Below, in pieces: positions 7,001 to 55,350 of a DNA stretch of 64,000 nt. The notes under the pieces were generated by a model, which saw only the letters and a program-made list of their open reading frames with translations, was not told the origin of the DNA and did no database searches. Where the stretch lies: the NCBI GenBank assembly GCA_903813345.2, contig CAIIXF020000011.1, forward strand, positions 26,652,166 through 26,716,165, given 5' to 3'. Made by a program: the position numbers and the translations under genes. This DNA comes from Owenia fusiformis (taxonomy: Eukaryota; Annelida; Polychaeta; Sabellida; Oweniidae). Every line of letters begins with the position of its first letter. Within the stretch, counting starts at the first letter, position 1.

Positions 7001-7500
7001 NNNNNNNNNNNNNNNNNNNNNNNNNNNNNNNNNNNNNNNNNNNNNNNNNNNNNNNNNNNNNNNNNNNNNNNNNNNNNNNNNNNNNNNNNNNNNNNNNNNN
7101 NNNNNNNNNNNNNNNNNNNNNNNNNNNNNNNNNNNNNNNNNNNNNNNNNNNNNNNNNNNNNNNNNNNNNNNNNNNNNNNNNNNNNNNNNNNNNNNNNNNN
7201 NNNNNNNNNNNNNNNNNNNNNNNNNNNNNNNNNNNNNNNNNNNNNNNNNNNNNNNNNNNNNNNNNNNNNNNNNNNNNNNNNNNNNNNNNNNNNNNNNNNN
7301 NNNNNNNNNNNNNNNNNNNNNNNNNNNNNNNNNNNNNNNNNNNNNNNNNNNNNNNNNNNNNNNNNNNNNNNNNNNNNNNNNNNNNNNNNNNNNNNNNNNN
7401 NNNNNNNNNNNNNNNNNNNNNNNNNNNNNNNNNNNNNNNNNNNNNNNNNNNNNNNNNNNNNNNNNNNNNNNNNNNNNNNNNNNNNNNNNNNNNNNNNNNN
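7001..7500. other. Assembly gap (500 N)
   Basis: Exactly 500 unknown bases, probably a scaffold join of conventional size. Reading frames running through it are meaningless. Confidence 0.99.
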
Positions 7501-8843: not shown

Positions 8844-9364
8844 TTAAGATTTTGGTTCTTGGTTATGCTCTGGTTTGTAAATGTCTGAATAACTTGGAGG
8901 TTGATGTAAAGATGTCGCTAGTAAATGAGTATTTGGTGAGATTGCATTATAGTTAGGTCCTGCACCATGTAAAAGGGCATCAGGGTGTATAAAAGGAGGT
9001 ACCCTTACATCAACTCCTGGAGCAGTCTCTATAGTTATAGAGCTAGGAATGTGTGTATTATCTGCAGCTAGATCCAGTTTGCTGAGATCACCAGCCTCAT
9101 TTTCAGATTTGTGGCCATTTTGTGGGTCACTATGGTGATAAGGAGGAGGTCCCTCTTGATTTATAGGAGGAGCACTTGGAAGGAGTGGAAGATTGACAGG
9201 TTCAGGTCCTTGTCTTTGCCCCTCTTGTCTTTGTGTGTTATTAGATGTTGTAGTTTGTCCTTGTTTAAAGAGCCAGGCCCTTCGTGCTCTGTATATACAG
9301 ATACCTATTGCTATCAACATTCCTATCCCAACAACACATCCAACACATACGAAGATGATCAGGG
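8844..9364 (-). CDS. Exon 6: transmembrane helix and PPxY cytoplasmic tail
   Basis: The acceptor is TTATTTTCAG at 9365-9374. The exon opens with the hydrophobic run ALIIFVCVGCVVGIGMLIAI, then IYRARRAW. The tail of about 145 residues is rich in Pro, Asn and His and carries GPPPYHH and QPPSYSDIY. The second motif also places a tyrosine in an SDIY context that could be phosphorylated. The frame open further upstream, to 9428, is intron; it gives an artificial N-terminus starting MLNELFQ. Confidence 0.88.
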
Positions 9365-12300
9365 CTGAAAATAAACAAAATATGAAGAAAGAGTGAAATT
9401 TTAGTTTTTGAAATAACTCATTTAACATTGATTTTATGTTATTGTTACAGTCTCCAACTCTTTTGTGGCTGGTGTTTGCCGGTTGGTGTTTTACATTTGA
9501 TGGTTGGTGTTTGGCATCTGTAACAGCATTCGGTGGTAAGTGTCTGTTACAAATGTCAGGTTAATGTTTTGTTTTACAGATATGATTTAAAGACATTAAA
9601 AAACATACACAACATTAATAAAGTGCAAAAAACAGACTATGAAATAATATCTCAATATTAAGAACTTCAAGTGAGAAGCTTTCAGTATCATGTACTCCTG
9701 ACTAAGCTAATTGCTTTTTAATTGCTTTTTAAATTAACCCAATCTAAATATGATCAATTAAAAATCTCATATCTGAGTAAACTAAACATTAGTAGTTTAA
9801 TGACAGCAACTTGCCAAGGTTCAAAGAAAGTTTTGACTGTCGATTTGAAATTAAAGAGTTGTTAGATAAATATTGATAATTCAATCTAAATTAAATTACA
9901 AATGTTTAAGAAAGGTATTTATTAATTTACATATAATGAGGTCAGACTATCAAGTTGTCTTACCTTAAATTGCTAATTGAATTTTGAATTAATTATGATT
10001 ATTTAGCTAAGTAATCTAAGACATTTAAAATGTAATTATGTGTCGTTACATGTTAAGCTAGATAACACTGCATTCAGCATCATTATACAGTAAAGCGTAA
10101 CACCTCTAGAAGAGAAACACCTCTGTTAGTGGAACACTTTTCAGAATCCCATGACAAACTTATTACTTAATGTTAAATGAACCTCTATAAGTGAAACATC
10201 TCCCAAGTAGAACACTTTTTCAGTGGTACCAAAGGTGTTCAACTAAAGCAGGTTTTATTTTACCTTCTTTTGAACATTCAACCCATTTGCAGTTAATCTC
10301 CTCAAATGTTTTTCCTACACATGCCCTTCCACCTAGAACGGGAGACGGGTCGTTACATCGGCGGTTACGTGTCTTTCTACACATCATTTCTGACTTCAGT
10401 CTACTACATTCTTCTGTCCACTCTGACCATGAACTCCATGCTCCATGAACTGAAAAGGTCGATATTCTTTAAAGCAACATGACTACATGTATTTGGCAAA
10501 ATAGCTGATAAAATACCGATACAATTGTCCCATTTTGTCGCAATACCAGTACATGTATAATTTTATTGCCCCATTATGTCACACTTACCAATACAATTAC
10601 CTCATTTAGTCACAATTACTAATATAAACACCCCATTTTATCACACTTTTCAATATAATTAACCCCTCTTGTCACACTTTTCAATACAATTAACACCTCT
10701 TGTCACACTTTCCAATAACAATTAATCCATCTTGGCACACTTTTCGATACTATTAATGCCTCTTGTCACACTTTTCAATGCAATTAATCCCCCTTGTCAC
10801 ACTTTCCAATACAATTAACCCCTCTTGTCACACTTTTCAATGCAATTTATCCATCTTGTCACACTTTCTAATACAATTAACACCTCTTGTCACACTTTCA
10901 TAATGCAATTAATCCTTCTTGTCACACTTACCAATGCAATTAACACCTCTTGTCAAACTTCCAATATAATTAATCCCTCTTGTCACACTTACCAATACAA
11001 TTACCCCATTTTGTTACATCAGAGTCAAAATCGTAAATAGTTGAGCACCATGGATGGCCACCATTGTTCCTTGTAATACAGTAATGATAGATATCACCCT
11101 TGAACTTGAATGGGAATGTACATGTGGAACCCTCTGCCACTGGACCTCCCTGTGTGTTGATTTTAGCTGAAAAAAGTTAAATGTTGATTTGAATATTGAT
11201 TGTTTGTTTGCGTACTATCCTGTTGTTTGTTTGATGATACCATATTTTGCGTTAAAACACAATTTTAGATTTAGGTAAATTGGCCGTTAATTTTAGGCTT
11301 TTTACAAAAATATTAAGTTATTCAATGTCTTGATATAGAAAAAAACATTAACTTTAGGCTTCTATACATCTACATTGGAAATTATCAAATAGCCAAGTGT
11401 AAGTTATATTCAAAATGACACACAATGATACAGAAACCTATCGTGCCTGAAAACACTATTGTGTCTGTTTTCAGCCTATATTGTTCTATATTTTTATACA
11501 AGTACTTCATTTGCACTTGATTCTCCTTCATAACTTAGAGCCAAAGATTACTAATTATTTTTTTAATTGATTTCTGATCAGACTAATATCCTACTTAACA
11601 TTTAGTTTTTCTAGTGCACATTTCCTTTGTATTGATCTGTAGCTCTTTCATAAGAAACAAGTGAAGTACTAAGTACTGCAAAACTGAATGAATATTTTAC
11701 CAGGTAACTGTTAATAAGTGCTATTTTTTGGTACCCCTTACATTCGTTTGACTTTTTTCTTATCAAAGCTTGTTGTTGACAGAAGAGAAATATTTATACA
11801 TGGTAGATTACTTATACATGTTCAGAATCCTCTGACAGCATTGTTAATCCACCATTGAGCAATATTAGAATTATAGTTCTGTTTGCTAATTGGTTGAGAA
11901 ATGTGGGGCAGGCTGCGGAGCTGTAAAATTGTCTAAATTGTTCAGAAGTTAGATTGCAACTAAATTCTGCATACTCTTTGCGGTCTTTGGGATGTCCACT
12001 TCTTAGATAGAATGCAGTTATTATTTTGCAGAAAGTTAAAAAAATTTCCCTTTCATCCAATGATAATTAATTTCATGCTTTTGAATATTTCATCCTTTAT
12101 TTAAATACTTATTTGCTGAGTTTTCCCACCTTCTCCCCCTAGCGAAACTCACCGCATCTTTCGAGACCACATTCTTCCCACTCTGGGTCAGCACCTCTTC
12201 TATTTATGTAACACCAAGGCCCTGGGTACCACCTCTCGTCAGGATTGCGGCAAAAGTTCTGGGCAGCTGTGATGGTTTTGTCAGGATAGTCTTTATCACC

Positions 12301-15300
12301 TAGAGTCATAATTGTAGGCTTAATATTTACACCAATCTCCTGGGTTGATTCCCGGGGTTGATTTCAAGGAAATTAATGTCTCTTAGAATGTGTACTAACT
12401 AAAATACATGGACAAGAATCTATTACAATAATGTTTGATACAACACAAAAATGTTGTGTTCTAACTAAAAATGTGGCTTTCTGTAATATGAACTTTGTCT
12501 ACTGAGTTCTTGGAACTCGAGTCCAGGTTCGTGTGTAAGTGCGTATGTGTTGGCATTGCCTGTAGCCAGCTTTTACCAGGAGGGGGAGCTTTTTTCCAGG
12601 GGGGAGCTTTTTCATAATTTTGGCTAAAAATCGTGCAAAAACTTCTCAGAATGGTGAAAAACTGCAAGAATTTCTGGCCAGGGGGGGGGGGAGCTTCCGC
12701 TCCCCCAGCTCCCCCTCTGGCTACGGGCCTGGTATTGTGTTTTATAACTAAACATTAAATTTCTAGTAATCAAATGAATCTATTAGGATGAAAAGATTAT
12801 CCAACATGTTTCTTATATGATATGATTTTTATCCACATCACCCCTCCCATTTTATCACAAACAGTTTCTCAATTTGATGAGTTGGTTGATATAGAATTGC
12901 ATGATTTGTTAGTAGTTTGTGTCTTATTTTGTGCTTTGCACAATCTGATTGCTCCTTGTGATTCATGATTCTACACAGAGGTTTAACTGTTAGAAATTGT
13001 ATACTGACCGTTTTATAGAAAAGAAAATATTGCATGCGAAACTTACAAAGGCATTGATTATATGTCATCGGTGGATCAAAATGTAATTCATAACCCACCA
13101 TTAATAATCTCAAATGCATTATCCAAGTTAAGAATATCTATTATTCCATTCCTGTCATCTATGCTTTATTTAACTAATATTAGATTTAATGATGAACATT
13201 TATGATATCTCTTTGGATAATATAGATTGACTACCAACTGCATTGCTGGGAATTATATTGTTTTATTCACTTATTTTGTTTGCTTATCAATAACAAATAT
13301 CTTTGGATTTTTCATACAGTTAAAGCACCAGACACATATAGCTTGAAAACACAAATGTGCACAAGTGGCATATTGCTTGAAAATACAAATGTGCACAAGT
13401 GGCATATTGCTTGAAAACACAAATGTGCTCAAGTGGCATATTGCTTGAAAACACAAATGTGCACAAGTGGCATATTGCTTGAAAACTCAAATGTGCACAA
13501 GTGGCATATAGCTTGAAAACACAAATATGTACAAGTGGCATATTGCTTGAAAACACAAATGTGCACAAGTGGCATATTGTTTGAAAACACAAATGTGCTC
13601 AAGTGGCATATTGCTTGAAAACACAAATGTGCACAAGTGGCATATTGCTTGAAAACACAAATGTGCACAAGTGGCATATTGCTTGAAAACATAAATGTGC
13701 ACAAGTGGCATATAGCTTGAAAACACAAATGTGTACAAGTGGCATATTGCTTGAAAACACAAATGTGCACAAGTGGAATATTGCTTGAAAACACAAACAA
13801 ATGCATAAGGCCTCCTGCCAATAAAATAAATTGCAAACTCATTTAACTCTACATAAAGTGAAAACCTTTAAAGTCATTAAATTGACATTTAGGCTAATTG
13901 AATGTATTTCAAAGTAAAATGAAAGTAGGTACTCGGATAATGTAAACATTGTGCTTGTTGGAGTGAAGACATTTAGACCTGGAATAATGTTGTGTTTTGT
14001 TTATATATCAGACTCATTGTTAATCCTCAATTGACTATGTTTCAAATGGAAGGTATATCACATATACTTGTTGCCATTTATCTTATGAACACAATCTATT
14101 CTCTATACCTATGACTTCTTGGGATATGATTTATCTATGAGTAGGAATCAATATATCTATACTACAGGTATAGTGAGAGATATCAGTTTCCATAAGTAGG
14201 TGAATTATTGAATGTTATTAAGTTCCTCATCAGATGTCAACTGAATTCCACTTTCATTTCTTAGTATGAGTGTAATTGTGAGATAGATTAACTCTTAATA
14301 ATACAATAGCTATTTCTCCTGCACATCTTCGCACGCTTCAATCTTTTTTTTTAAATTTTTATATTTCATTTATTTCATAATACATCATACAAACAGATAC
14401 AAGGCCTACGCCGGAGCATTATTGGCCCTGTTAAAGTAGTTACAATACAGGTTAAAATAGGTCACAATGTAAAAATGATAGATATAAAACATATTTATGA
14501 ACATGAAAATAATCGTGAAAACGTGCTCTTTGCCACCAGGAGCTGAGTGCACAAGGATGTGTGCTGCATGTACTTACTTGTGAATCTGTGTTCATTGGGA
14601 TATTGTTTAGACCAGGCCTGGCATGGTTTGCCTGATGCTGTATGGGAATGGGTGCCTACATACTCAGAACCTTGCTCTGTCACCTTGCAGTCTGCAAAGA
14701 TAATTAGGAAGTTTGAAATTGGGATCCTAAATTATTGTTTTGGTTTATAATTATTAGGATTTTATGTTACCCATTGTTCTTCCTGAGTATATTGGTCATC
14801 CCTCGTATTTAAATCAAGTAGTTAATTGATCAGTCCATGTGTGATTCCATGCAGTTGATTGGTCAGTCCTTAGATGATTTATTGTATATATAGATTATTG
14901 GTCAGTCCTCTCATGATTTCATGTTGTTATTGGTCAGTCATCTTATGATTTCATTTAGTTTATTGGCCAGTCCCCGTATAATTTCATGTAGATTATTGGT
15001 CAGTCCTTGTATGGTTTCCTGTGGATTATTGATCAGTCCTCTTATGATTTCATGTAATTTATTGGTCAATTTTCATATGATTTCATGTAGTTTATTGGTC
15101 AGTCCTTGTATGGTATTATGTGGATTATTGGTCAGTCCTTGTATGATTTCATTTAGATATTTTGGTGATTTCATGTAGTTTATTGGTCAGTCCTCTTATG
15201 ATTTCATGTAGAAATCCCCTATGTGATTAGACAACATACAAGTTGCATTCAAAAGACTTAATTGTTCAAATTATAAAAAAAAACTTTTTATTACTCATAC

Positions 15301-15545
15301 ATGTACCTAAAGGAAATTCATAAAATATTTTCCATGTGTTTTTTTAGTTGGCAAAGTTTCACCTGCTCTATTCAGTATTAAAAGGAACACCATATGAAAA
15401 CACTACATGCATCTTGGCACTATTCAGAAAAATATATTAAAATAACATGATTAATAAATGAGTTGCAATTTGTACCTTTTCCAAGTGAGCCATCCAATAG
15501 AGCAGTGAGCAGTATGGCAATTGTTGCTTCTATGGGGAACTCCAT
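8844..15545 (-). CDS. Single-pass membrane protein: kringle + FN2 + TSP1 + TM + PPxY tail
   Basis: A six-exon gene assembled from splice sites: 15545-15476, 14691-14578, 12299-12153, 11166-10993, 10449-10264 and 9364-8844. Lengths 70, 114, 147, 174, 186 and 521 total 1212 bases, giving 403 residues plus TAA, in frame throughout. Residues 1-23 form a signal peptide (MEFPIEATIAILLTALL). Then come a six-cysteine kringle (25-110), an FN2 domain (126-167), a TSP1 domain (about 173-227), a transmembrane helix (231-255), a basic stop-transfer RARRAWLFK and a proline-rich tail with PPPY (303-306) and PPSY (386-389). These modules belong to extracellular adhesion, matrix and protease-binding proteins; PPxY is the ligand of WW domains such as those in NEDD4-type ubiquitin ligases. 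I infer a cell-surface receptor or ligase adaptor. I know of no described protein with this order. Every intron is phase 1, as in exon-shuffled modules. Extra exons in the long introns cannot be excluded. Confidence 0.85.
10088..10255. mobile_element. Short pogo/Tigger-like element fragment
   Basis: It begins TACAGTAAAGCGTAACACC and repeats phrases such as GTGGAACACTTTT and AACACCTCTAGA. The right end, AAGCAGGTTTTATTTTA, is an imperfect inverse of the left. The same phrases recur inverted at about 16690-16945. It ends within about ten bases of the exon 5 donor, so it sits almost on the splice site. Confidence 0.5.
10264..10449 (-). CDS. Exon 5: thrombospondin type 1 repeat
   Basis: The acceptor is CCTTTTCAG and the donor G|GTAAAA; both junctions are phase 1 and the length is 186. 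The peptide shows the TSP1 signature: WSSWSEW, then six cysteines in the contexts EEC, MMC, RRCNDPSP, GGRAC, INC and VEC. The TRNRRC stretch supplies the basic residues that stack between the tryptophans in this fold. W173, W176 and W179 are candidate C-mannosylation sites. Confidence 0.9.
10530..11012. repeat. Minisatellite, about 31-32 bp unit, intron 4
   Basis: About fifteen diverged copies of CTTGTCACACTTTCCAATAC followed by AATTAACCCCT. It lies in the intron between the FN2 and TSP1 exons and runs up to the FN2 donor region; the exon begins at 10993. The short frame at 10825-11040 is the repeat read through. Confidence 0.9.
10993..11166 (-). CDS. Exon 4: fibronectin type II domain
   Basis: The acceptor is TTTTTTCAG and the donor ATTG|GTAAGT; the length is 174 and both ends are phase 1. 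The FN2 signature is complete: STCTFPFKFKGDIYHYC, then HPWCSTIYDFD and KWGNC, with four cysteines at residues 126, 140, 151 and 167. The family binds collagen or gelatin in several proteins; that activity here is only an inference. Confidence 0.92.
11167..12152. other. Intron 3, no feature recognised
   Basis: Sequence between the second kringle exon and the FN2 exon. The small minus frame at 11812-12060 has no recognisable domain. Confidence 0.5.
12153..12299 (-). CDS. Exon 3: kringle domain, C-terminal half
   Basis: The acceptor is ATGACTCTAG and the donor G|GTGAGT; the length is 147 and both ends are phase 1. The peptide carries the second half of a kringle: QNFCRNPDERW, GPWCYIN, then WEECGLERC. 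Together with exon 2 this supplies all six kringle cysteines. The joining codon is AGT (Ser62). Confidence 0.93.
12556..12730. mobile_element. MITE with GCCCGTAGCCAG-type ends, copy 1
   Basis: The ends GCCTGTAGCCAG and CTGGCTACGGGC form an inverted repeat. The interior is G/C-rich (GGGGGAGCTTTTTCCAGG). It lies in intron 2 of the kringle gene. A second copy is at 57931-58153. Confidence 0.75.
13330..13797. repeat. Minisatellite, 34 bp unit, intron 2
   Basis: About fourteen copies of AAGTGGCATATTGCTTGAAA followed by ACACAAATGTGCAC, with few substitutions, so recently homogenised. Because 34 is not a multiple of three, all three minus-strand frames stay open and produce a 34-residue periodic peptide. 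These frames are artefacts. It is not CRISPR: there are no unique spacers and the host is an animal. Confidence 0.95.
14343..14500 (-). mobile_element. Possible 3' tail of a truncated retroposon
   Basis: Read on the minus strand, the segment ends in an A-rich tail (a T-run with TTTATTT at 14345-14375 on the plus strand) preceded by GGGCCAATAATGCTCCGGCG. This resembles the untranslated end of a 5'-truncated LINE or SINE. No target duplication was identified. Confidence 0.3.
14578..14691 (-). CDS. Exon 2: kringle domain, N-terminal half
   Basis: The acceptor is TCTTTGCAG and the donor ACAA|GTAAGT; the length is 114 and both ends are phase 1. The peptide starts DCKVTEQGSEYVGTHSHT and includes the conserved kringle core GKPCQAWS and the YPNEH loop. 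Confidence 0.93.
14826..15210. repeat. Minisatellite, about 33 bp unit, intron 1
   Basis: Roughly eleven copies of TTATTGGTCAGTCCTTGTAT followed by GATTTCATGTAGA. At 33 bases the unit keeps frame, which explains the 85-residue plus frame at 14921-15178 with an 11-residue period. I do not regard that frame as a gene. Confidence 0.92.
15476..15545 (-). CDS. Exon 1: start codon and signal peptide
   Basis: ATG at 15545-15543 follows AAAGAG. The encoded MEFPIEATIAILLTALLDGS is a short N-terminal hydrophobic stretch of signal-peptide type. The donor AAAG|GTACAA leaves phase 1, and the codon joins as GAC to give the Asp before the first kringle cysteine. Confidence 0.8.
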
Positions 15546-18500
15546 CTCTTTAATTCTCTCCTGCTTTCATCTGAGGAAAAGATCCTGAAGATAGCTTCTG
15601 AATTCTTTTATATTCTTTGTGGAATTTAAGAGCCCAAGCTATGAATGTTTATTGATGCAATACTATTTTGTCACATTGATTCCAAGTTAGTTTTATATGT
15701 TTTCAAGAGAATATTCCTTATGCAGCTTCTGTTAGGTCTCCCATTCAGACGAATGTCCTCCCTTCAATCGAACAGATATAAAGTGTCCAAATTAAAGTAC
15801 CATTTTATCTTATATGATTGGTATTTAAAAAGTGAATCTTAACCAATGGTCCCAAGTCAGTGTTTAGTGTACAGAGCATGCGACATGCATGTATTCCAAT
15901 GTCAATGTGTCCTGTTGCAATCTCTCGTCACAAATTAGCGTACCTTTAATTGATCATTTCTCCTTGAGTAATCAAGGTAATGATCACTCTGCATACAGCT
16001 TGCATTGCTCATGTAAATCTATTTCACTACTGCTACATTAATATTGTTATTACCCTCTATAATTTGCTGTAGAATGCAGCCTCGTTTGCTGAATTGTAAT
16101 TCTATTCCGTCATATTATTCGTCCCAACTTCTGGTCTCACATTATGCACCATGCACTGTGGTAATTCTTACCTGAAAATACAAATGTTTATTTAATCCAA
16201 AAGTTGTTTTTAAATGTTTGTTTCTTTTCCTTTATCACTACTATATCTTCAAATATGCTTGACGATGTTACAATTTTATCATAAAGAAAGAAATTACCTA
16301 ATACTATATTGATGTATGAATCAAGTAAATCATTAATCTCCGTTGTGCAGCAGCCTATTAACAATTTAGTATATTCACAAATACAGAATGTTATTGTACA
16401 TTTATAGGTATTTGTATAGGATTCAAGCTAAAATCAATTTTCTTATATTTCTGTATGTGCTCACAATATAAATATTTGATTATGTATTCAGACTCCAATA
16501 TGTGTTAAATAAGTGTAGATATTTGTGTAGTTAATGCAAGTATTCATTGATGGATGTACTTAAGTTAAGGTGAATGTTGAAAACTGCAGATTGCATATGC
16601 ATTAAAGTCTCATCCAACCTATCTCTTAAAGGCTAATCTATTCCACCCCTCCCCTATATAATACTTTGGTGCTATGTTCATAAACACTGCATAAACACTG
16701 AATTATATGAACACTTTCACCTGAGGCTTAATCTCTCAAGAAAATCTAGGCCAAAGGAATCCAGCATGTCAACAGTCAAATTTTGGAAGTGGAAGAATTT
16801 TTTTCAGAAATTATGCCAATGTTTTTGCAAGTGGAACACCTTTGGTACCTCGAAAAAGTGTTACCTGGAAGGCGTCCCTCTAATAGAGGACAGAGGTGTT
16901 CTACTCTAGAGGTGTTCTTCAGCTTTACTGTACCTTTAAATTCCATAATGGTTGTACATTTTTGCTTCATTTCACACTGAGTAAACTAGAATAGCGTGTT
17001 ATGTTGAGATGGAGTCAAACATTTCAGGAGTTAATTGGTTTACTACAGTAGACACAAATAAAAAATATATCCCTGAATATATTTCAGGGGCAATTTAATG
17101 CACAAACCTGAACGACATTGTATATAGCCACGAGGCAAAGAAATATGCAAAACTCCATAGAAAACCTAGACAAAAGAGAGAAAACACTGCACAATACACG
17201 AGTCAATAGCGTCAATAACACTAAAAAGGCTCTCCAATAGAAAATCATGTAAATTGAATACGGAAATCCCTAAGAGCTCTTTTTTATTTTTCTATTGAGA
17301 AGATTTTTCATATTTCTTTTGCATATAGATATATAATCTGGCTCATCTGGGCAATGTTCAGAATATGTCCACCTGCCTTTGACACTTGACAGGATGCTAT
17401 TATGAAAATGAAAAGAATCAAATTTATCTGTGTATGTTCTCATTAAAAAATCAAATGTCAGTTTATTAAGAATGTCAGTTTTGAATGGAGTGAGCAATAA
17501 ACAGTTTTAAAAAATGGCATACAAGAAAACGAGGGTCATCTGTAACTTCCCCTTGATTATCTCAACAAACAGAAGTTTTAGTAGGGCTATAGCAAAGCTC
17601 TCTGTCCATCAGTTCAGGCAATAACTGTAATTTGAGTCACAGTGGTTTTTTACCATTTCATTGCATTGAAGTTGCCTACTGGTACTTTAGTGTACTAATT
17701 ATACACATATGTATTTTTATACATGTATAATTATGCAAAATATGTACCGGTTTGAGTGAGATAAATATGTACTGGGTTGGAGTGAGATATATTTTGAGAT
17801 ATATTTTAGCATGTTACAGCCTTTAAATTGCAGTAAAGCAAGATTTAGCAAGATTAAACATCTCAGTAACTTAAAGCAAATAGGTTCAGGCAAATATTAA
17901 TTATTAAAGGCAACATCATCAAATGTAGATGAGGTTCCCTGAATGTCATTTGAGCATTACATTGTCCAGCAATCCATAGACATAATATTATGTTACCAGT
18001 TGTCAATAGCAAATTATATTTTCAACAATCTTTATTTAAACAGATTCTTTGATCAATTATTAATCCATTCATGAGGTGGAATCTATTATATTACTGATAT
18101 TCTATCTTATTTCTAAGTACATCATTGATCGAATGTTGTCATTATGTTAAATATAAGTGATATTGTATACTTACTGTGATATTATAAACTTACTGTGATA
18201 TTGTATACTTACTGTGATATTGTATACTTACTTATCCCAGATCTATTAAGATTAAGAAATCCTGATATGCATTCATTGCATTGGTTAATTATGATTCATA
18301 TAAATAGATCAAATAAGGAAAAAAAATGCATTAAGTTTCCAAAGTATGGTATACTACATGTAGCTATTATTGAAAAGTATTAACCAGCAAATAAGAAAAT
18401 TATCAAATTGATAAAAATGTTATCACATTATTTCCTTGTTTGTCAGTGTGTTTGTACTTTGTACCAAAATAGTTTTATTGTCAAACTTCATGAACTATCT

Positions 18501-20170
18501 TGAAAATAAAAATTTGATTTACCTCATGTTTGCTGCAAAATAATCCTCATTGAAATAACAATTTCCAACCAACAATCTTCAAGAGTATAATTTTGTTTAG
18601 CTTAGGAGAAAAAAACAACTCCGTCATTTATCTAATCTAAAGCTATTCCCCATCAACACAGGATCAGCGAACATTGAGAGACTTCCGATTTACTCCCATT
18701 GCTGACCTGGAGTATTGATCTTCCCTTTGACAGACGATTTCATAAACAATGCATAATATTGTAATTTTCTCAATAAAATTGAATGAAGTATGTTACATTT
18801 GGTCATTTTTATAAGATTTGGATATTGTGCTTCATGTCTTTTGAATTCCCTTATTGGTATATCCTCTATTTTTCATAGAAATCCTTGTTACAAACCATGA
18901 CTTGGAAAGGGTCAGGTAATAATCTGACAACATGATATCTGCTTATAGAACATGCAATGGGAAGATATTGTGCTACAATCAATAGTGAAGAGAATAACTT
19001 CAACAGGCTGTTAAACCATTACCACCAATTTATCCTAGAAAATGTATTTAGGTACATGGTTTTTTTTCAGTTGTCAGTGGCGCCAAACCCTCAAGACCAA
19101 TTGCTTACTTTTGAGATGTCATACAGATTTCCCAATTCTTGGTATAAGAGTTGGAGAGATACAGTGTATGATTTAGCTGGTTTCAAATTGGTTTCAAGTA
19201 TGACAAAATATGATTTTCACCAAATAATTTTCATATGTGAGAGCAAGATCTGTAATTCCTTGAAACATGACTTCCTACCACTACCATTATCTCAACATAG
19301 GAATTAAATAATCTTTCAAGTGCAGAAATCTAATCATTATTAAGCAATATGACTCACCTGTTACAGTATATGAAACTAACTAGACCTAGGTGATGTCGGA
19401 CATGTGTGTAACATTAAATTACAAATTACTGTTCATCAGGGTTTAAAACCCACTAGGTTGCCAAACTTTATGCCAACAAATGATTATGGACATGATTGGT
19501 CATCACAAACTCATAGCCAAAACAGGTGATTAAATAATTTCAACTTGTAACTCGTTACACAGGTGGCTTATCATTGATCATGCTCCCCTTCCCATTATTT
19601 TAATTTTCAATTACACCACCTACAGTGTATATCCCGGAAGGGGGTTAGTTAAGTTGAATTAGTAATAATGTCATCTGTGATGTTGTGTAGCAATATTATT
19701 TCCTTACCTGCTTCTTCAGCATCCGTTGTCATGGAGATACATGTATGGTTATTCTATGCTCACCTGGATCTATGTAGATACAGACAATATTACAAGCTAG
19801 ATTCAGAACTATCTATCAGTTACATCCCCATTGATGGAATATCATATCATGATCACATTCAAAATTAGAAATGGCTGTGGAGTGAAATTAGTGATGGATA
19901 AGTTGAATAGGTCAATAATAATTATAGTGATTCAAATTTCCTAAAACTACCGTAATATGTGATAGTTCATCCATAATTTAGAGAGAAAAGGGTGAAATAA
20001 GCATGGGAGGAATTAGGTTTTACTCATTGGTTATTGATTTCCAACTCAGAATTACTTATTGTATCTTCTGCATCTTCACAATCCATATTTAAATCGTTTA
20101 ATAATTTCCTATCATATTGTTATGATGATTATATCATCTTTAGTTATAGGGTTTCTTTCATTTTGTTGGT
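15546..20170. other. Long gene-free stretch
   Basis: No supported coding sequence. At 16690-16945 is an inverted relative of the 10088-10255 repeat, with GTGGAACACCTTTGGTACC and ending AGCTTTACTGTA. At 18154-18234 are about four copies of a 19-bp repeat, GTGATATTGTATACTTACT. The 116-residue frame at 18957-19307 has no recognisable domain. The 5' end and promoter of the kringle gene should lie just right of 15545, but I see no defined promoter element. Confidence 0.45.
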
Positions 20171-20176
20171 ATACAT

Positions 20177-20507
20177 CAGGGGCGGATCCAGGAACCAACA
20201 AGGGGGGGGCCCAAATTTCAGGTCAGAGAAGAAACGTCGGCGCTTGCGCGGAAAAAAATTTTGGGCCCCTAAAATCCAAAAGTGGGCCCAAATTTTGAAA
20301 TTTTGAGGCCCATTTTCTTCAAAATTTGGCCTGAAATTAACAAATAAGGCCTTAAAAGGCCCAGTAATGACCAAAGAGGCCCACTTTTTGGGGCCTGAAG
20401 GCCTTGTTTGGCCCAAAAAATTTTTTGGGCCCAATTTCTTTTTTCTGGGCCCACCCAAGGGGGGGGGGGGGCCCGGGCCCCTGGGCCCCCCCCCTAATCC
20501 GCCAGTG
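20177..20507. mobile_element. Non-autonomous DNA transposon with CAGGGGCGGAT-type ends
   Basis: The left end is CAGGGGCGGATCCAGG; the right end, read inverted, is CACTGGCGGATTAGG. Flanks share the 5-bp duplication TACAT at 20172-20176 and 20508-20512. The interior is full of GGGCCC-type phrases and a run of 12 or more G. The overlapping frames at 20034-20512 are read-through of the element. Related partial copies lie at about 58793-59056 and 60285-60515. Confidence 0.8.
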
Positions 20508-20816
20508 TACATTGACTATTTTTATTTCTGTTCAGGGGTATAGATGGGTTCTGATGCAATACTTATGCATTTTTTATAAATGTGAGAAGCCAAATACAGA
20601 GAAACGTTTAAAAGCTACTCTCTCATTAAAATATACCGAGTCCATTGAATATATCAGTTTATTGGTTTGTTTAATGGTTTGTCCATAGACATGCCCATGA
20701 TTTGTTGAGAACACACACAGGATAACATAAAATGCAAATATCTAATTTAATTATGGTGGAATGTTCTTGAATTTTCCTGAGCATAATGTAGACGAGCAAA
20801 CAATGGTAAACTTATA

Positions 20817-21988
20817 CAGTAAAACCTGTATATCTGAACACCTGGCTAATCCGAACACCTTCCAATTTGAACATTTTTTTTCGGTCCCATTTTTTCCTCC
20901 CATTGACTCCCATGTTAAAAAAACCTTGAAATCTGAACACCTCCTAATCTGAACAGTGAACAATCAGATTTGAAAAACTGACCTGTCTAATCTGAACATT
21001 TTATCAGAAATCAAATGTCTGGACATTTCAATAATAGCCACATATTGAGTCAATGTTATAGTTCTTATTATCTTTACATATGCAATGTAATCAAAGAACC
21101 AATATTGTCCTAATTAACTTATTTAAGTCTCAATGACATCCCTAATTGTGGAAAACAACAGGAAAGGTGTGAATACGGGAGTTAATTGGTTTATCTTATT
21201 AGAAAAGAACTGAATGTTTTATGTCTGGATTAAGAGAAAGGTGTGAATCAAGAAGATATTGATTTATAATTATTGGAAATTACCTGGATGTTTTTGATTT
21301 GGATTAAGAGAAAGGTGTGAATCAAGAAGATAATTGGTTTATCCTTATTTTAAATTAACTGGATGTTTTTGATTTGGATTATGAACAAGTCTTAACTGTT
21401 TTATATCCCATGGGTCTGTTATAATAGCTGGGATTCAATCAGTAAATGTTTTATAATCACAAAGACAACACAGACACATTTGCAGACAAGATTATATCAT
21501 GAGAAAGAGAAAAAATTCAACTTCGTAATATCCTATCACTAAAATGCCTTCTAAAAAGGCACATCTGACATACTGAATGCCCTTGATATTTTGAAAAAAA
21601 AATCTTTTTAATTGAAGAGGGTATCTACTCAAATATTGCTAATGCTAAAAGTGCCAAGAAACAAACAACAATCAACGAATTTTTCAAGCTAAAGTAAAGC
21701 ATAAGATTTCGTACAAGACTATCATATACTTATTCAGTGTATTACAAAGTTTTTGCCAAAATTAAAGAGTTATTTTTCCAAAAATAATGAAATTGTTCAA
21801 AATGTAAATAAAACATAGCATATACATGTAGGCTATAGGCCTATTGTAGTATTAAGTGTTCAATATAGTGGACTGAACAATGAAACCCCCCCCCCCCGAC
21901 CAACAATATCCTCGAAATTTGAACACCTGCCAATTTGAACGCTTTTGGCTGGTCCCATGGGTGTTCGGATTAGACAGGTTTTACTGTA
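20817..21988. mobile_element. pogo/Tigger-like element, non-autonomous
   Basis: The left end is TACAGTAAAACCTGTATATC and the right end GATTAGACAGGTTTTACTGTA, forming inverted repeats, with TA at both borders as expected for the Tc1/mariner superfamily. Phrases such as TAATCTGAACACC recur near both ends. No transposase frame is present in the 1.17 kb. It might be two adjacent short copies rather than one. Confidence 0.55.
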
Positions 21989-21999
21989 TACTTAAGAAT

Positions 22000-24850
22000 T
22001 ACATTTGTTTACAACAAGAAAATTCAATCACAAAACTATTTTCTTCTTTTTACAATCTTTATTTTATTTCACAGAATGTTTCTGATCATTATAATAAAGA
22101 GAAAAATTCAAAATTAAAGGTTTGCATTTTTGAATCATCCTGAGGTATAGTATAGTTGAAAGCCCCATTAATAATTAAGTCCATTTTCACATCTCTACAC
22201 TTCTTCAGATATGATGTTTATTGTTTACTCACTAGAATCATCAATATTGACAATAAGTTTACTGTCCTTTGATTTCACACGTAAATTTGTTCACGTTCAT
22301 GTTCACAACTATTATGCTTCACTTTTCAGGTTTGGGTTCTAAAGCAGAATAGAACAAGGTGATTGGCCAAGTACAATCTGAACAACCATGGATAATGGTT
22401 GGAGCAATTAAAACAACATGGATAACAAAAGCAAAGATGAAATAGAAACGATGATAACGCAAACAACTGGATAAAAGGAGCAAAGATGAAATAAAGAGAC
22501 TATGCTGAAGTGACAATGGATAACAGTGCAATTAAAACATTTTTGAATAATTATGGATCAGCCATGGACAGTGATGTATAACAACTTGCAATCGAAGCAA
22601 GAGAACAATCTTGTAAGATGTTTATGAGACATCATGGTGACAACGCATTTGAAACATGATGGCCATGGACAACACAGAATTCATATGTAACAGAACATCA
22701 GATGAGCCAGGCTATTTTCGATCATAAAAATGATAACTTTCAATATGTTATCTATTGGTTACAGACTTCCAGACTATTATTCATGGAGAAAATCTATTAA
22801 TGATGGTAATATGATAGTGTTTAATGATTTAGGTGGTGTCTAATGTTTAAAGGTACACATTGTCTCCAATAATCTCATTTTTGGACATTACATGTATGGA
22901 TCCGATGAAGATTTTATTTATTTTCAACTTGATGTACATATTGCATATATAGTATTTTTATTTACCTCTTACTTGATGAGTTACGTTATATATACAGTAT
23001 GTTTCACATCCTTGTAAGTGTTCATTTCAAATGTTCCAAAACAAGTACATGCATTATAATTGTATTATTACTTGCACATGTTGCAGTTTTTATTATGAAA
23101 AGGGTCATTAGACCTTATCCCATGGTTGATCTCAAATTGGTAGCTTATGATCCTAAAAATGTATCAATCACTGCTATTTCCGACTGCTTAAAGGGATTAT
23201 GGATATACAATGTAGTTCTTATCAATCATTTAATGACAGTTAGAAAAATGTTATTGTTAACTACATAATAATTTGTAATAACAAAAACTTCTTGCAATAT
23301 ATATTTTAATGATCTTATTCTATTTAGGTTAATCTGTATATTTCATAACTAAATGAATAATTTTATTTCATTAAAGATTACATCCTTGAAAGAGTAGTTT
23401 ATCTCTATAATCTATATAATTTACTAAAATAATACATATTGTTGACTGTAATTATACTCATACCATGATGATTATTCTTCATTATAATATATACTTACTT
23501 GTCCCATGATCTTTCTGGTGTCCTATATCTTTGGTCTTCCAATATTTAGTGTATTCATAAACTCCACTATGTGTGTCTTTTGAGCTCTTATTAGTGTAGG
23601 GAAGTCATAAAGTGTCCAAAGATGATCACAATATGTGAGGTATTTATACTCTACCAGTTGCCTTTTGTATTTGTTCCTCAGTCATTAGGCTTGACTAATA
23701 CCGTGACCATGTATATTGTATGTGGGTGTATGTGTCCACAATGTTTGACTTTAGTTATGACCTTAACTGGCCCTAACTGTCCAAATATATCCTGTCTTCA
23801 TTGAAATGTTTTCCATGTGTGTTCAATGTTCATATTTGTTACTCATAACTAACTGTTTTCATGAAGTTACATGCATAAATCACAAAGGGCAAACTAAAGA
23901 AATAAATTAATTTTTCACAATTATGACTCATATCTTGAGTTCATGAATGTATTTTATTATTAGATTTTAATTTAATCACTTGTAACTTCCTCTTGACATT
24001 GAGTAAAAAATTTCCCTGTTTTCCAAGTGAGTCATGATTTTAACATGTCTCTTCATATTATACACAGGTCATCAACTGAACATTAAAACATCCTAACCTA
24101 CATATCCCAGGTTGATTTATATGTATATGTCACATGTTATTCTATTTTAACATTATTGTGAAGTGTATTTATACAATAAAGAGTAAAATACATAAATAAA
24201 TCGCTTGGATGAACAAGTTAACTGTTAACAATTTGTTTACTAGTTGTCAAATATATTTTGTTGAACAGCATAAGAAAACTTATACTGCTTGAAGAATTGA
24301 AGTTACCTACATGTAGAAATGAACCCTTTAGCTTGACTCATGTATTTTATCCTGTTTTCATTAATAAATTGAGAGGATGCAGCCGACAATCAAATATTTA
24401 AAGTAAAATGGTGTCATGTTCCAATGAACATGTACTGAAATCAGTAATCATGTTTACACTGCCATCTTTTATTGGGAGCTAAATATGGTTTATTTTAAGC
24501 AGACACATATAAAATGTCTTAGCCCATACCCATCCTTCTTAAAATCTTCAAATAACTTCATTTATGCTTAAATTCAGAAAGAAGTGAAATATCCTTGGAC
24601 CAAGGCAGCCCAGACCATCCACTTGAAGGAATGGGCGATGTCTGGTGCCCTGCATTTGATGAATACAACAATTCTCCAACAGTTTGGAGAATAGAGTGTA
24701 AAAACTGAAAGCAGTCTTCTAAATATATATTAACAAAGTCAATGTTTCTACCACAATCCTTTGGTATTTGAAATAGAATTGTGATATCTGATCAAATATG
24801 GAATGGTTGAAGATACAAGATGCAGAATTGTCAAACTTTATTAGAATGTT
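22000..24850. other. Gene-free stretch
   Basis: AT-rich, with only short frames (for example 22999-23268 and 23622-23804) that show no domain and no splice context I trust. Confidence 0.45.
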
Positions 24851-24856
24851 TGTATT

Positions 24857-25824
24857 AGTCTGAGCAATAAATAGATAGAGTATTTGATTCTCCATCACCA
24901 CTTCCAAATCAAGGTGGCTTGAAAGCCCATCGTTTCCAATATTGTCTAGATATACATATCACCCCAAAATATATTTTACATTTTGTATACTCTCATCCAC
25001 AGATGCATGGTCTCTTGAAAGTTCTCTAAAGGATTGGTATCGATATGGTGAACTTTTTGAACATACGTTTAGTCATCAAAAAAATATGAAAATTTTACAC
25101 ATTGTCAATCTAATGGTCATCTTTTGAATGGTAACAATATAATTTGAAAAAAAAATGTAAACACACTTTTCTCTATATTGTTTTAGAAAACACATCAGAC
25201 ACTACTTTTGTTCTTGGTATCATATGTTCGGAATGAAGTGAAACATCTATCCGAACCTCATTGGAACAAAATGACAAACTCAACGTCTTTAGGTCTCTCA
25301 ATATTATGATTATACAAAGGAAAGTTTGGATTTTAAAAAAGTATCTTGTCAATGAAACAAGTATTTAGTATTATGATTATACAAAGGAAAGTTTGGATTT
25401 TAAAAAAGTATCTTGTCAATGAAATAAAAGGTTTATCTTAATTTTTATCTAATTTTGGGGTTTTTGTTTTAACTTTTTGAAAACTTTCTGTTAAATCAAC
25501 CAAAAACTTTGTATAACTATAATATTGAGAGGTCTAAGAAAATGCTGTATCTGCTATTTTGTTCCAACAAGGTTCGGAGATATTTTGTTTCATTCTCAAG
25601 AATTGGTAGAAAGGAATAAAAAACAATTGCACTAAAAAACAAAAAATGTTAACAAAAAAGTCATGTAAAATATATATAAATAATGTTCGCATTAAATTGT
25701 TGTCAATCAGTCAACATTACATAGAGGATCGTGCTAAATTCAGTTCACCATATCGATACCTGTCCTTTAACATGGGAATCCTCACTTTAGCAAATACACA
25801 ACTCATTTCTTTATTGCTCAGACT
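24857..25824. mobile_element. Imperfect 1 kb palindromic element
   Basis: Arms of about 470 bp face each other. AGTCTGAGCAATAAA at 24857 pairs with TTTATTGCTCAGACT ending at 25824. GGTATCGATATGGTGAAC near 25038 pairs with GTTCACCATATCGATACC near 25742. CGAACCTCATTGGAACAAAA near 25254 pairs with TTTTGTTCCAACAAGGTTCG near 25558. Between them a block of about 58 bp is directly duplicated (about 25305-25360 and 25367-25424). A half-copy lies at about 59065-59600. It is non-coding and foldback-like. Confidence 0.7.
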
Positions 25825-25829
25825 GTACA

Positions 25830-27500
25830 TGTATGTATGTGTAGGGAGCGTCCAGTATCTCAAATGAAATTGATCAATAACATTGAAAATCGAAGCATTA
25901 TCAATGGAGGCAGAAGTATTGTATAGAAAATGAGCATGGCATGGGATGTCGTGATCGTGAGCAAAAACTATTCAACCAGTTCATTTCTCTAGTTCTGTCA
26001 ATGCTAGCATGTACTATTTCATTGAAATAATGAGGAATTATATTATTAAACACGACGTTATAGTTCGATTTAAGGCTTAAAAGGATTAATTTTATTTCGG
26101 CCATTGAATCACAAGAATGGGATGTTTTTATAACATCTAGTTACTGCAAACAGTTGCCATTGGATTATTTATTCAAATGTATGATAATAGAAAGTGTTAT
26201 GCCAAATATTTAGGACTCAAGTTAGATTATATTGAATTCCTATTTAAATCACCTTAAAGAGTACTTCCTAAAGTGAAAGTAATTCCCGGGAAGTAATTGG
26301 GTCATCCATTTGAGACTCTCGATGTAGCTAGGTTAATTATTGTATTTCGTCATAAGTCAGATTGCTTTAGGTGGATCAGGGGTTACTCAGATCATCTACA
26401 GATCAACTTATCACATACAGCATTCGTAAAATGTCCGGTTCGGTATTTGCACCTTGTAATACTCTCGGCTTGCTCTTCGTCTTTTTCACCATTAGGAGCG
26501 AAACTTTGCATAACAATTTTAGTAGGAGCTGGGAATGTTAAAATGGAACACATATTGACACGATGTAGATGGTGTCATTGAATACAATAATAAGTAATCA
26601 ATTTTTTATCAAGTAAAATAGAATAATAATAGTCATTCTGTTATCTGGAAACAGTTTTCAATTATTCTGAAATAAACCGGAAAATATGTTGTACTTTTAG
26701 AAGACACTTGTAGCCATGACATGGAATGATGCGCAAAACATATCGAAACGTCATTTCAACTAGTTCCTTCTTCTCCATTCAACTTGACCAATACTCAAGT
26801 ACAGTTAAGGAGATGTTAAACCTTAAAATAACAATGTAGAATATTATCTTCTCAATAACTTATACCTCTCAAACTAATACTGCTATATCGTGACAGCGAT
26901 AACTTGTATCAAATCTTTGACTTGGATGAACATAAATTGTTTGCGCACATTATGAAGTCTTGAGATAAACGGATAATTTCAAACAAATAAACAAGCATAC
27001 ACTCAGTATGATAACGGTCAATATAAAAGCTGGACATAATAGCAATTCTGATTCATGATGGACATACAGTGGTAAGTAAAAATGTATTGCCAAACTGTGA
27101 TTTGGGATGGCCACACTACGATGGCACCTGAATAATCTATTGACTCTGTCGATTAATGACAAGCATATTGGTTGAAATAAGTGACTAAATGGAAGTGGTT
27201 ATATTAGCCCTTGAGGTGACATAGTCATTGTAACGCTCGGAAGGTTCGGAAACGATGTATATAAGCTATTAAGTAAATTACTTTGATCGATGGTAGACTG
27301 TATCGATTGATCAAATGCAAACAGATTTAGTCAAAGGAACAATTATATTCCATTAAACTGGAAGTATCAATTCTGTATTGTAAATATATGATTTGGATTC
27401 ATTGTAAGTGGTCGGCGATTGTTACAGTAACCTACACTCAGTAACCAGCTGCTTTTTTGAATCAACGGGCAATTATTATTTTGGATAAAATGATCTATTT
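25830..27500. other. Gene-free stretch before the 509-residue frame
   Basis: No recognised gene. The last part may be promoter or 5' untranslated sequence of the gene starting at 27559. A polypyrimidine/CAG acceptor (TTTATTTCAG) near 27505-27514 would fit a 5' untranslated intron, but this is unproven. Confidence 0.4.
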
Positions 27501-27558
27501 TAAATTTATTTCAGTTTCAGACTGAGAACTATGAGAAAAACGTGAGCAAAACACTGTG

Positions 27559-29088
27559 ATGTCGAAAATTAATACCAATAGTAATACCAAACGTTTGACA
27601 AAGTCTGCATATGGGGAATCAGAACGGAGGACACAACCTAGAGAAGGTGCCTACCATGTCAACATGTCTACCCGGAAGTTCCCACCTCCTATTGTTTGTT
27701 ACAGTGAGCGAGAACGTGATGCGCAGACATTGAACAAATTCGAACATTCGCGACTTATTCGTCAACTGGAGCATATCGATAATGAAAAGGCAATGGCGCA
27801 TAGAAATATTAAGAGAGAGGCTTCAAAAATGAGAGAACGTTGCTCAAAATTTGTGGACCTACAAAGCATAATTGCTGATAAAACTCAAGTTGTTAGAGGT
27901 GATGAGCGTCCGAAATCCGTTCTGGGACCCAGCGGCAGTGGGTGCCGACCAGGGACAGCTCCTCGGGTAACCAGTCCTAGGGTGGTGGATCTGGTTTTCT
28001 GGGGTGAGAAAGAAATCAAAAATAAAGTTATCAGAGTGAACTCTCAGATCCTAGAGACGGGGTCCATACGGAGGTCAGACCTTGCAGAGATCCGAAGAAA
28101 TCTTTCAAATAGAGCAACCGTCTCCATGCCAACCATAAAATCCGCACCCGCCAACAGAACTAAGGGAAGAACAATGAAACAGTGCCATTGTAAAGGAATT
28201 TGTACTTGTCTTCCAAACGGATCGAATCATAGTAACGCAGATTCCTACCGACCTGCAACAGCTTTGCCTCATACGGTTGCCGGTAACTATAGAAGCATAT
28301 ACCATAGCAACAGCACACGATCGTCCGTGAGCAACGACCAACACCATGGCGATCACAATATAACAAGGGATATTACAGTTGATACAGGAACATTAACAAT
28401 GAAGGGCATATCATGTAAACGTAATACTGTCGAAACAAGTTTAGAGGGTACTCCCCACACACCTTGTGATTCTCCAAAAAGTATAACTGATCAACTCTCT
28501 GGCAAAAGCCTTGAATTGAATTGCTTTATTAAAACTCCAAATAACATGCTGAACGACCGACAAGAAACAGATGTAAGTATGGAAACGCCTGTAATACTAA
28601 TTAACGGGGAGTCTGACGATAAGCACGAACATAGCACAGTTCCAACCGATAACATGAATGATGACGACAAAAGTGGAAATGAAAACGTATCACATGCCAA
28701 TAACATAAAAAGTAATACTAAGATAGCTGAATCAAAAACTATTTGCAATCAATATACAAGTGAAATGGAGCCTAGGTCTTGGATAGGACGAGGCTTTGGG
28801 GTTCCTCATAGACCACGCTCACACAAAACAAAATCACGGTTCTTTGTGCGAGATAAGGCAGAATACGAATTAAAACAAGAACTGAAAAAGCAAAAATCAA
28901 AAAGAGATACAGATACACAAGTAACTTTTTATTTGGAGGACGCATTGAGTTTAGAAAAACTTAGATCGAATCTCTTTGGTAGGAAGGTTCAAAAATATGT
29001 GCTTGATACAGCTCAGTATATCAAGAATATTTCCGTCAATAAGTGGAATATTAAAGACATTGAAACTAAATTAAAGCTGAATACTTAA
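27559..29088 (+). CDS. Uncharacterised 509-residue protein, single exon
   Basis: An uninterrupted frame from ATG at 27559 to TAA at 29086-29088; the preceding in-frame GTG at 27556 is not a eukaryotic start. The length and codon composition, less AT-rich than the flanks, argue for a real gene. The N-terminal 120 residues are charged and probably helical (RLIRQLEHIDNEKAMAHR). There is a proline/arginine block (RPGTAPRVTSPRVVDLVFWG), a cysteine cluster CHCKGICTC near residues 208-216, a long low-complexity Asn/Ser/Asp-rich middle, and a basic C-terminal helix (AEYELKQELKKQKSKR). There is no signal peptide or membrane segment. I do not recognise the family; it is probably intracellular and largely disordered. 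Lack of introns could reflect an exon-poor gene or an old retrocopy. Confidence 0.75.
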   Translation: MSKINTNSNTKRLTKSAYGESERRTQPREGAYHVNMSTRKFPPPIVCYSERERDAQTLNKFEHSRLIRQLEHIDNEKAMAHRNIKREASKMRERCSKFVDLQSIIADKTQVVRGDERPKSVLGPSGSGCRPGTAPRVTSPRVVDLVFWGEKEIKNKVIRVNSQILETGSIRRSDLAEIRRNLSNRATVSMPTIKSAPANRTKGRTMKQCHCKGICTCLPNGSNHSNADSYRPATALPHTVAGNYRSIYHSNSTRSSVSNDQHHGDHNITRDITVDTGTLTMKGISCKRNTVETSLEGTPHTPCDSPKSITDQLSGKSLELNCFIKTPNNMLNDRQETDVSMETPVILINGESDDKHEHSTVPTDNMNDDDKSGNENVSHANNIKSNTKIAESKTICNQYTSEMEPRSWIGRGFGVPHRPRSHKTKSRFFVRDKAEYELKQELKKQKSKRDTDTQVTFYLEDALSLEKLRSNLFGRKVQKYVLDTAQYIKNISVNKWNIKDIETKLKLNT

Positions 29089-49821: not shown

Positions 49822-51066
49822 CTAAAGATATATGCAAATGTATACGAAAATCGACAAATTAACATCAAAACATTAACTGAAAGATACCTGTCTTTTAGGT
49901 AGATGGTGGCCTGGTACTATTGTTTTCCTACGTATCATTGAAACCGGTGTAAAATAAATTATGGTCCCCCAGGGATTATAGTTCCCTTTTTAAAGGCCCT
50001 TACTGAGATCTGATTATTAGTCCCGAGCCCGACAAATGTTTTTCACAGAGCGGGATATAATAAATCACAGTTACACTGTCACGTAATTTTATAGGGCTCG
50101 CGGGATAGTCACAATTGCAAACACCTTTATCCCGTATGAGAACTTTGTAGCACTGAGCCTCGGGACAGTCAGTTTCTCAAACTCACTGTCCCGTAATTTT
50201 TTTTTTGCAAACGACGGGATATAATTAATTGAGACCTGACATATCCCGGCGCTGGGTAAAAAAATTTGCTGCGGGATAAAGTGATTTCAGAACTTGACTA
50301 ATGCTGATCAAAGTATATGCTATCAAGCCATCACACATCTCTATGTAATTACCATACTATATTACCCTTGCAAAAAATTCCATTTTTCATGACCTCTTTG
50401 TAGATCAAAGTATATGCTATGAAGCCATCACACATCTATGTAATTACAATACTACATGTATATTACCCTTGCAAAAATTTTCATGACCTTTTTGTACTGT
50501 ATTATATCAACATCTGTCTTTTATTTTAAAAATGTTGCTAAAGTTTATTGGGAGGGGTGGCACCTACACACTTGATTCAAAGTGCTATCTGTTATGTGGG
50601 GGGGGGGGGGCATCTTCACACTTCACTCACACCATGGTCTAGAAGAATCACAACTGTCACAATTCCTCATTCCATCCATCTGGTATCATTAAAATAGCCT
50701 TGAATATAATATGCAGTATGTACATAAATCCTTGTGTGACATCCTGTATGATTTATTATGCCTATTGCTGCATATGTCTTTCTATTTTTTAATCAGCGAA
50801 TATATATGTATATAAATCCTGGTGAAGTAATGTGGTCATTCCTTAAGCCGTCTCATATCATTTATCATCCTAATTGTTCATATTCAACAGCTCCTTGCAG
50901 TGAATTAAAGAAAAGTTGTTTTTCACGATAAATACTGGTGAAGTATTGTGGCAATTTCCTCTTGCTATCTGGTTTTCTTTGTCATCCTAATTGTTTGCTG
51001 TACATTTCTGAGGACCTGAATAAATCAATAATAAAAACATTTATTAGCAAGACACACAGTGATAAA
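49822..51066. other. Non-coding stretch upstream of the kinase duplicate
   Basis: No kinase exon is recognisable. It contains a diverged direct repeat (AAAGTATATGCTATGAAGCC near 50310 and 50407) and repeated phrases CGGGATA and CCCGTAAT at 50040-50280, plus a run of G near 50600. Confidence 0.45.
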
Positions 51067-54070: not shown

Positions 54071-54564
54071 TGACTTGTTAACTTAGGCATTTTTGAAGAT
54101 TCTTGGCTCCAGAACTTAGAAGTAGTATTAGCTACTTAAATATGGTACCATACCATATCTATTTTTACTTGCTTTCATGTATGTATTTGAAGAAAATTCC
54201 TTTCATTGTAGCAGCACATCTATAAATGATGTTAATTTTAATTAATGGTTAAGAGATACAATATTTTGACTTGTTTTTGTTTTCAATTGAATATCAGCAA
54301 GATGGACATTTTTTCAACCATGATTACAATCTGGGTTTTCAAACCAAAGCAATGCATTATAATTCTTTGAAAAATTGGAAATAGAGAGTCTGACTTTAAG
54401 TGACATTTTTAAAAGTAAAAGATACACTAAGATGTTTGGTCAGTATTTAATTGACATAATGCAGATCAGGAAAGACTTTATTTTTAAACAATAACTAGTT
54501 ATTTTAAAATGTTCAAATGTGTCTCATAAGCCCAGATAGGGCTGGTTGTATGATATGATACAAA

Positions 54565-54955: not shown

Positions 54956-54959
54956 CAAA

Positions 54960-55350
54960 AATGAAAGTCAGTGACATGGTATGATACATGATATTACATT
55001 GAGTGCCATTGTATGTTACAAATATGATTGTAAGTGACATGGTATGTTTCAAGATATGACAATGAGTGACATGGTGTTACAAGATATGACAGTGAGTAAC
55101 ACAGTATGCTACATGATTTGACAGTGAGTTACGTAGTATGATCAAGATATGGCAATGAGTGACATGGTGTTATAAGATCTGACAGTGAGTGACATGGCAT
55201 ATTACAAGGTATGACAGTAAGTGACATGGTATGTTTCAAGATATGACAGTGAGTGACATGGTATGATACATAATATGACAGTGTGTGATGTTGTATGTTA
55301 CAAAACATGACAGTGAGTGGCATGGTATGTAACAACAAGGCATTAACATG
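54960..55350. repeat. 32-bp satellite, block 2
   Basis: About twelve copies, with the same unit as block 1. The minus frame at 55129-55365 is repeat read-through. Confidence 0.9.

Follow-up and report, generated by a model that had tools for sequence, protein, structure and literature searches.

Can a single gene join a kringle, an FN2 and a TSP1 module outside the cell to a cytoplasmic tail with docking motifs for ubiquitin ligases, and what might such a protein do? The question is raised by positions 8844 to 15545 of a 64,000-nucleotide stretch of DNA from the annelid Owenia fusiformis (assembly GCA_903813345.2, contig CAIIXF020000011.1, positions 26,652,166 to 26,716,165; hereafter termed the window). 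On the minus strand, from 15545 down to 8844, six exons join into 1212 nucleotides, which correspond to 403 codons and a stop codon without a frame break. This join was proposed in an initial annotation of the same DNA, whose coordinates and length of 403 residues proved to be exact. All five introns are bounded by GT and AG, and all five lie in phase 1. Judged from the sequence, the six-exon minus-strand gene is convincingly real and intact-looking, and is predicted to encode a type I single-pass membrane protein. A pseudogene was dismissed on account of the unbroken frame and the GT-AG introns, and the locus is treated here as a predicted gene with the following exons.

Exon 1, 15476 to 15545, minus strand: start codon and a signal-peptide-like segment, residues 1–23; the least secure exon.
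Exon 2, 14578 to 14691, minus strand: first half of the kringle, residues 24–61, placed by its junctions and the Pfam Kringle match at residues 28–110.
Exon 3, 12153 to 12299, minus strand: second half of the kringle, residues 62–110, placed by its junctions and Pfam.
Exon 4, 10993 to 11166, minus strand: FN2 module, residues 111–168, placed by its junctions, Pfam fn2 and a match to MMP2.
Exon 5, 10264 to 10449, minus strand: TSP1 module, residues 169–230, in which WxxWxxW is present and the second cysteine is displaced, placed by matches to solved TSP1 repeats.
Exon 6, 8844 to 9364, minus strand: transmembrane segment, cytoplasmic tail and stop codon, residues 231–403.

The coding sequence has a GC content of 0.437, compared to 0.32 in the introns. 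The open frame of exon 6 extends over 173 codons, an event with a chance of about 1.5e-5 given its frame and start and the stop frequency of the window. An AATAAA hexamer is found at 8255, about 590 bases 3' of the stop codon. The ectodomain possesses 16 cysteines in sets of 6, 4 and 6, which agrees with the full sets that had been claimed for the kringle, FN2 and TSP1 modules, respectively, and it has no N-glycosylation sequon.

Pfam scans were reported to an E value of 1 for the whole protein and of 10 for a module alone, with filters that drop most matches above 0.1; in the whole protein, only Kringle and fn2 pass their curated cut-offs. Weak matches to B277, TMEM174 and Zap1_zf1 were far under the cut-off and were dismissed. 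The kringle (PF00051, residues 28–110, E value of 3.3e-18, 66.2 bits against a curated 34.3) has its six cysteines at residues 25, 47, 78, 91, 105 and 110, and a phmmer search against solved structures placed plasminogen and HGF kringles among the best 60 of 121 sequences. We compared it with plasminogen K4 at seven positions, which we take to form the lysine site (an Asp pair, cationic residues and an aromatic cradle). Three of the seven are kept (D54, W60 and W70) and F62 is conservatively replaced by Y, whereas K35 is changed to F, D56 to R and R69 to E, the last two with less certainty as they adjoin alignment gaps. On this comparison the kringle probably does not bind lysine, and the loss of most of the site's charges weakens the idea that it binds in a plasminogen-like manner or holds a protease.

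The FN2 module (PF00040, residues 126–167, E value of 3.9e-11, 43.2 bits against a curated 22.2) has cysteines at residues 126, 140, 151 and 167. Its best matches among solved chains are the FN2 repeats of MMP2 and MMP9, with a phmmer E value for MMP2 of 1.5e-23 over three repeats and of 1.4e-7 for the best single one. The FN2 repeats of MMP2 and MMP9 bind collagen.

The TSP1 module is less orthodox, and Pfam TSP_1 gave no match to it, either in the whole protein or with the module alone. Against solved structures, phmmer nevertheless matched it to thrombospondin-1 repeats (2.6e-12 over two, the better one 1.6e-5), to UNC5B repeats (6.6e-11 over two, the better one 2.1e-5) and to a single stretch of complement C7 (2.8e-8). 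It has six cysteines and the WxxWxxW motif in the form of WSSWSEW. The cysteine spacing is 8, 7, 11, 9 and 4, compared to 3, 10, 11, 9 and 4 in thrombospondin-1 repeat 2, and this displacement of the second cysteine is the likely reason why Pfam misses the module. The CxxxCG-type stretch, which carries O-fucose in ordinary TSP1 repeats, is absent. Of the two UNC5B repeats, the second shares 23 identities over the 49 residues compared and the spacing of 7, 11 and 9 after the second cysteine; it differs in having the first two cysteines three residues apart rather than eight, and the Ig and death domains of UNC5 proteins were not found here by Pfam. A single-sequence AlphaFold model of the TSP1 exon alone was of low confidence (mean predicted local distance difference test score of 54.6, predicted template modelling score of 0.35) and consists mainly of one helix and coil. 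As modelled, the exon does not adopt TSP1-like strands; the model lends the fold no support and was set aside.

Exon 6 encodes one hydrophobic segment, with a hydropathy peak of 3.01 at residues 232–250, followed by RARR and a tail of 149 residues that is basic at its start and proline-rich. The features of this region are as follows.

Transmembrane segment, 9291 to 9364, minus strand: about residues 231–255, assigned by hydropathy, with cysteines at 237, 240 and 253.
PSAP, 9168 to 9179, minus strand: TSG101-type late motif, residues 293–296.
PPPY, 9138 to 9149, minus strand: residues 303–306.
PPSY, 8889 to 8900, minus strand: residues 386–389, within PPSYSDIY and overlapping a YxxPhi motif.

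The two PPxY motifs of the initial annotation are thus present next to a transmembrane segment; they are 79 residues apart, so the term tandem used for them does not apply, and PSAP is a third motif that had not been described. Among 100,000 shuffles of the tail, at least two PPxY motifs occurred in 0.31% and at least two PPxY plus P[ST]AP in 0.011%, for motifs that were picked after the sequence was seen. This set of motifs brings to mind a receptor that buds into vesicles, in which PSAP (through TSG101) and PPxY (through the NEDD4 family) would drive shedding from the plasma membrane in the manner of ARRDC1. A single tail does carry PSAP and both PPxY; ARRDC1 engages TSG101 through a PSAP, and its vesicle secretion is strongly inhibited when PPXY is mutated (PMC4128227). 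However, P[ST]AP by itself arises in 3% of the tail shuffles, and ARRDC1 is not a receptor but reaches the membrane through its arrestin domain (PMC4128227), so that we consider shedding of this kind very unlikely.

From the exon structure, modules, hydrophobic segment and motifs observed here, we infer each binding step of a different scheme, to which we give about an even chance: an exon-shuffled type I membrane protein, the ectodomain of which captures a ligand or partner and the tail of which recruits NEDD4-family ligases for ubiquitin-linked sorting. The class 1-1 modules that spread by exon shuffling include kringle, TSP1 and FN2 (PMC3927616), and the uniform phase 1 introns fit such shuffling, by which the three modules would have been joined to a transmembrane segment and a tail with PY motifs. 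Outside the cell, the modules would hold a ligand, a matrix component or a partner receptor; inside, the WW domains of NEDD4-family ubiquitin ligases would dock on the two PPxY motifs. The protein and its bound cargo would then be ubiquitinated and sorted via endosomes, where PSAP may help to pass the cargo to ESCRT-I by binding TSG101.

Two groups of membrane proteins provide the analogy for the inner half of this sorting scheme. Comm and PRRG4 have a single transmembrane segment and L/PPxY motifs, and bind NEDD4 through these PY motifs (PMC5578492). The protein described here resembles PRRG1–4 and Commissureless in its single pass and the PY motifs of its tail; PPSYSDIY is similar to GLPSYDEAL, the extended PY motif of Comm1, and three cysteines inside the transmembrane segment are also found in Comm2 and CYYR1 (PMC5578492). 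It differs from PRRG and Comm in having no Gla domain by Pfam, no LPxY in the tail and an ectodomain built of three disulphide modules. ENTREP (FAM189A2) is likewise a type I single-pass protein with one PPSY and one PPPY in its tail, both required for ITCH binding, and it helps CXCR4 to associate with ITCH (PMC8811627). Compared to the present protein, its ectodomain is a 55-residue CD20-homologous region and its two motifs are 42 rather than 79 residues apart (PMC8811627). By analogy with these proteins, a reasonable proposal is that a ubiquitin ligase is recruited through the tail. Of the earlier suggestion that matrix or protease binding is coupled to such recruitment, the ligase half gains from the analogy, while protease binding via the kringle is weakened by the four of seven lysine-site positions that differ.

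Several points weigh against the sorting scheme. Comm regulates Robo at the midline without needing its interaction with NEDD4 (PMC5578492). The tail motifs taken singly are not rare, as at least one PPxY arises in 9% of the shuffled tails and P[ST]AP in 2.96%. The tail and exon 6 have no Pfam family at cut-off and no solved-structure match up to an E value of 1, so the motifs stand as short matches only. Viral and microbial contig collections, which say little on animals, yielded no relative (5 pattern matches for the FN2 exon and 8 for the whole protein). Finally, the identity of exon 1 is uncertain, likely rather than settled, with a competitor at 23931 (detailed below).

The same modules would also suit an ordinary endocytic or adhesion receptor, in which the PY motifs and YSDI govern only the turnover of the protein itself and the function is ectodomain binding of ligand or matrix, FN2 to collagen-like material and TSP1 to glycosaminoglycans or guidance proteins. 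The best scores of FN2 with MMP2 and MMP9 repeats, those of the TSP1 module with thrombospondin-1 and UNC5B repeats, and the YxxPhi motif overlapping PPSY all agree with such a receptor. So does Tmed-krg1 of the flatworm T. mediterranea, an invertebrate kringle protein predicted to be membrane-bound, the knockdown of which leads to a non-adhesive phenotype (PMC9229212). That protein has six kringles in about 1360 residues, and no FN2 or TSP1 is named for it in the excerpts consulted (PMC9229212). The largely lost lysine-site charges speak against the parallel, since they make the lysine binding proposed for Tmed-krg1 (PMC9229212) unlikely here, and we regard a purely ectodomain-based role as possible but not probable.

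How secure is the gene model on which the sorting scheme is built? Scored with a matrix taken from general knowledge, the donor of exon 1 is weak (4.72), whereas the other four range from 7.85 to 9.77; the exon 1 donor, AAAG|GTACAA, ranks between the 90th and 95th percentile of 3425 same-strand GT sites. We found 44 first-exon candidates running from an ATG to a phase-1 GT in 14692–26000, 11 of them with a hydrophobicity of at least 2.2, and only two of these 11 have a donor score above 4: the chosen exon 1 and the candidate at 23931. The latter has the better donor (5.52 versus 4.72), and exon 1 the higher hydrophobicity (2.56 versus 2.32). With its weak donor and this competitor, exon 1 is likely but unsettled; its segment would serve as a signal peptide and bring the predicted protein to the cell surface.

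Further along, a minisatellite of 31-base units (13.7 copies) occupies 10577–11003 in intron 4; it overlaps the end of exon 4, repeats the splice donor, and apparently arose by expansion of sequence at the boundary between exon 4 and intron 4. The GTAAGT donor occurs at 10992, which is used in the model, and again at 10931 and 10588; splicing at these two would add 61 or 404 bases to exon 4, respectively, and shift the frame. Introns 2 and 1 contain minisatellites of their own, at 13335–13797 (34-base unit, 13.6 copies) and 14786–15212 (33-base unit, 11.1 copies).

It is conceivable, then, that the model is partly wrong, with another or an additional first exon, skipped exons, or an exon 6 that belongs to a different transcript; the weak exon 1 donor, the better one at 23931 and the two further copies of the exon 4 donor within intron 4 point this way. 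The remaining four donors are strong and the phases agree throughout, and no Pfam family at E values up to 0.1 was found in seven selected minus-strand open reading frames. Five of these come from introns 2 and 3 and the other two from the 5' flank of the gene; the selection took in neither the remaining minus-strand frames of at least 45 codons, such as the minisatellite ones, nor any shorter frame. Apart from two chance-level matches (E values of 4.8 and 5.4), the window has no further copies of the modules. Overall, we consider an error of this kind unlikely.

Is the domain order new? One kringle outside and one transmembrane segment are also seen in PIK3IP1, KREMEN and ROR, but to our knowledge none of the three has FN2 or TSP1. 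KREMEN has WSC and CUB domains, and ROR has Frizzled, Ig and kinase domains; both were ruled out as none of these was found by Pfam. The tail of PIK3IP1 binds p85; the tail here has no Pfam match at cut-off, which would bear on PIK3IP1 only if Pfam includes a model of a p85-binding tail. Factor XII and HGF activator likewise combine FN2 and kringle in one protein, and such serine proteases were ruled out by the lack of a trypsin domain in Pfam; the protein described here also differs from them in its transmembrane segment. The initial annotation knew of no described protein with the order kringle-FN2-TSP1-transmembrane-PPxY. None was seen in the openly licensed literature, mostly abstracts, which lends that claim weak support, as animal genomes and proteomes were outside the scope of the search; nor did this literature yield kringle, PPxY and transmembrane jointly. 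Kringle, FN2 and TSP1 are mentioned together there only in general domain-evolution papers (PMC3927612 and PMC3927616, excerpts). Each part is of a known kind, and the combination alone may be new.

Alternatively, the protein may be nothing new: metazoan databases may already list its family under automatically assigned names, and related animals may share its domain order. Module shuffling is frequent among invertebrate membrane proteins, while no description of such a protein was seen in the abstracts and excerpts searched, and we hold this possibility to be evenly balanced between true and false. If an unnamed family indeed exists in related animals, the locus is an ordinary receptor gene deserving a name. 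If the order is truly unrecorded, it would illustrate cleanly how phase-1 shuffling of modules yielded a receptor whose tail came already equipped for ubiquitin-linked sorting, and the protein would be a candidate for an invertebrate equivalent of the PRRG/Commissureless-type trafficking adaptors. A stronger version, in which it represents an undescribed receptor class whose kringle-FN2-TSP1 ectodomain is tied to NEDD4-family and ESCRT-I recruitment and whose ligand capture drives removal to endosomes or shed vesicles, appears quite unlikely.

The surroundings of the gene contain other open reading frames and repeats; Rfam scans at the gathering threshold and ARAGORN found nothing in the window. 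Two exon-like open reading frames at 43216–44060 on the minus strand match the diacylglycerol kinase catalytic domain, one above the cut-off (E value of 7.3e-7) and one below (0.0029), and are reminiscent of ceramide kinase. In the same region, the frames at 38525–38779 and 48147–48395 look alike by eye, as do those at 42364–42612 and 49601–49858, which suggests a tandem copy; for the frame at 49601–49858, Pfam gave no family at cut-off. The opposite strand carries, amid the kinase-like pieces, a 784-residue frame (39469–41823, plus strand) that encodes a reverse transcriptase domain (E value of 1.6e-31) and resembles a long interspersed nuclear element. A further 517-residue frame (27535–29088, plus strand) has no Pfam family at cut-off, its best match being Syndetin_C with an E value of 0.011, below the cut-off. 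A run of 500 N at 7001–7500, about 1.3 kb 3' of the gene, is probably an assembly gap. Finally, long arrays of 32-base repeats with up to about 48 copies fill 52563–57575; they are broken by tandem repeats of 135–136 bases and preceded immediately by 145-base repeats.

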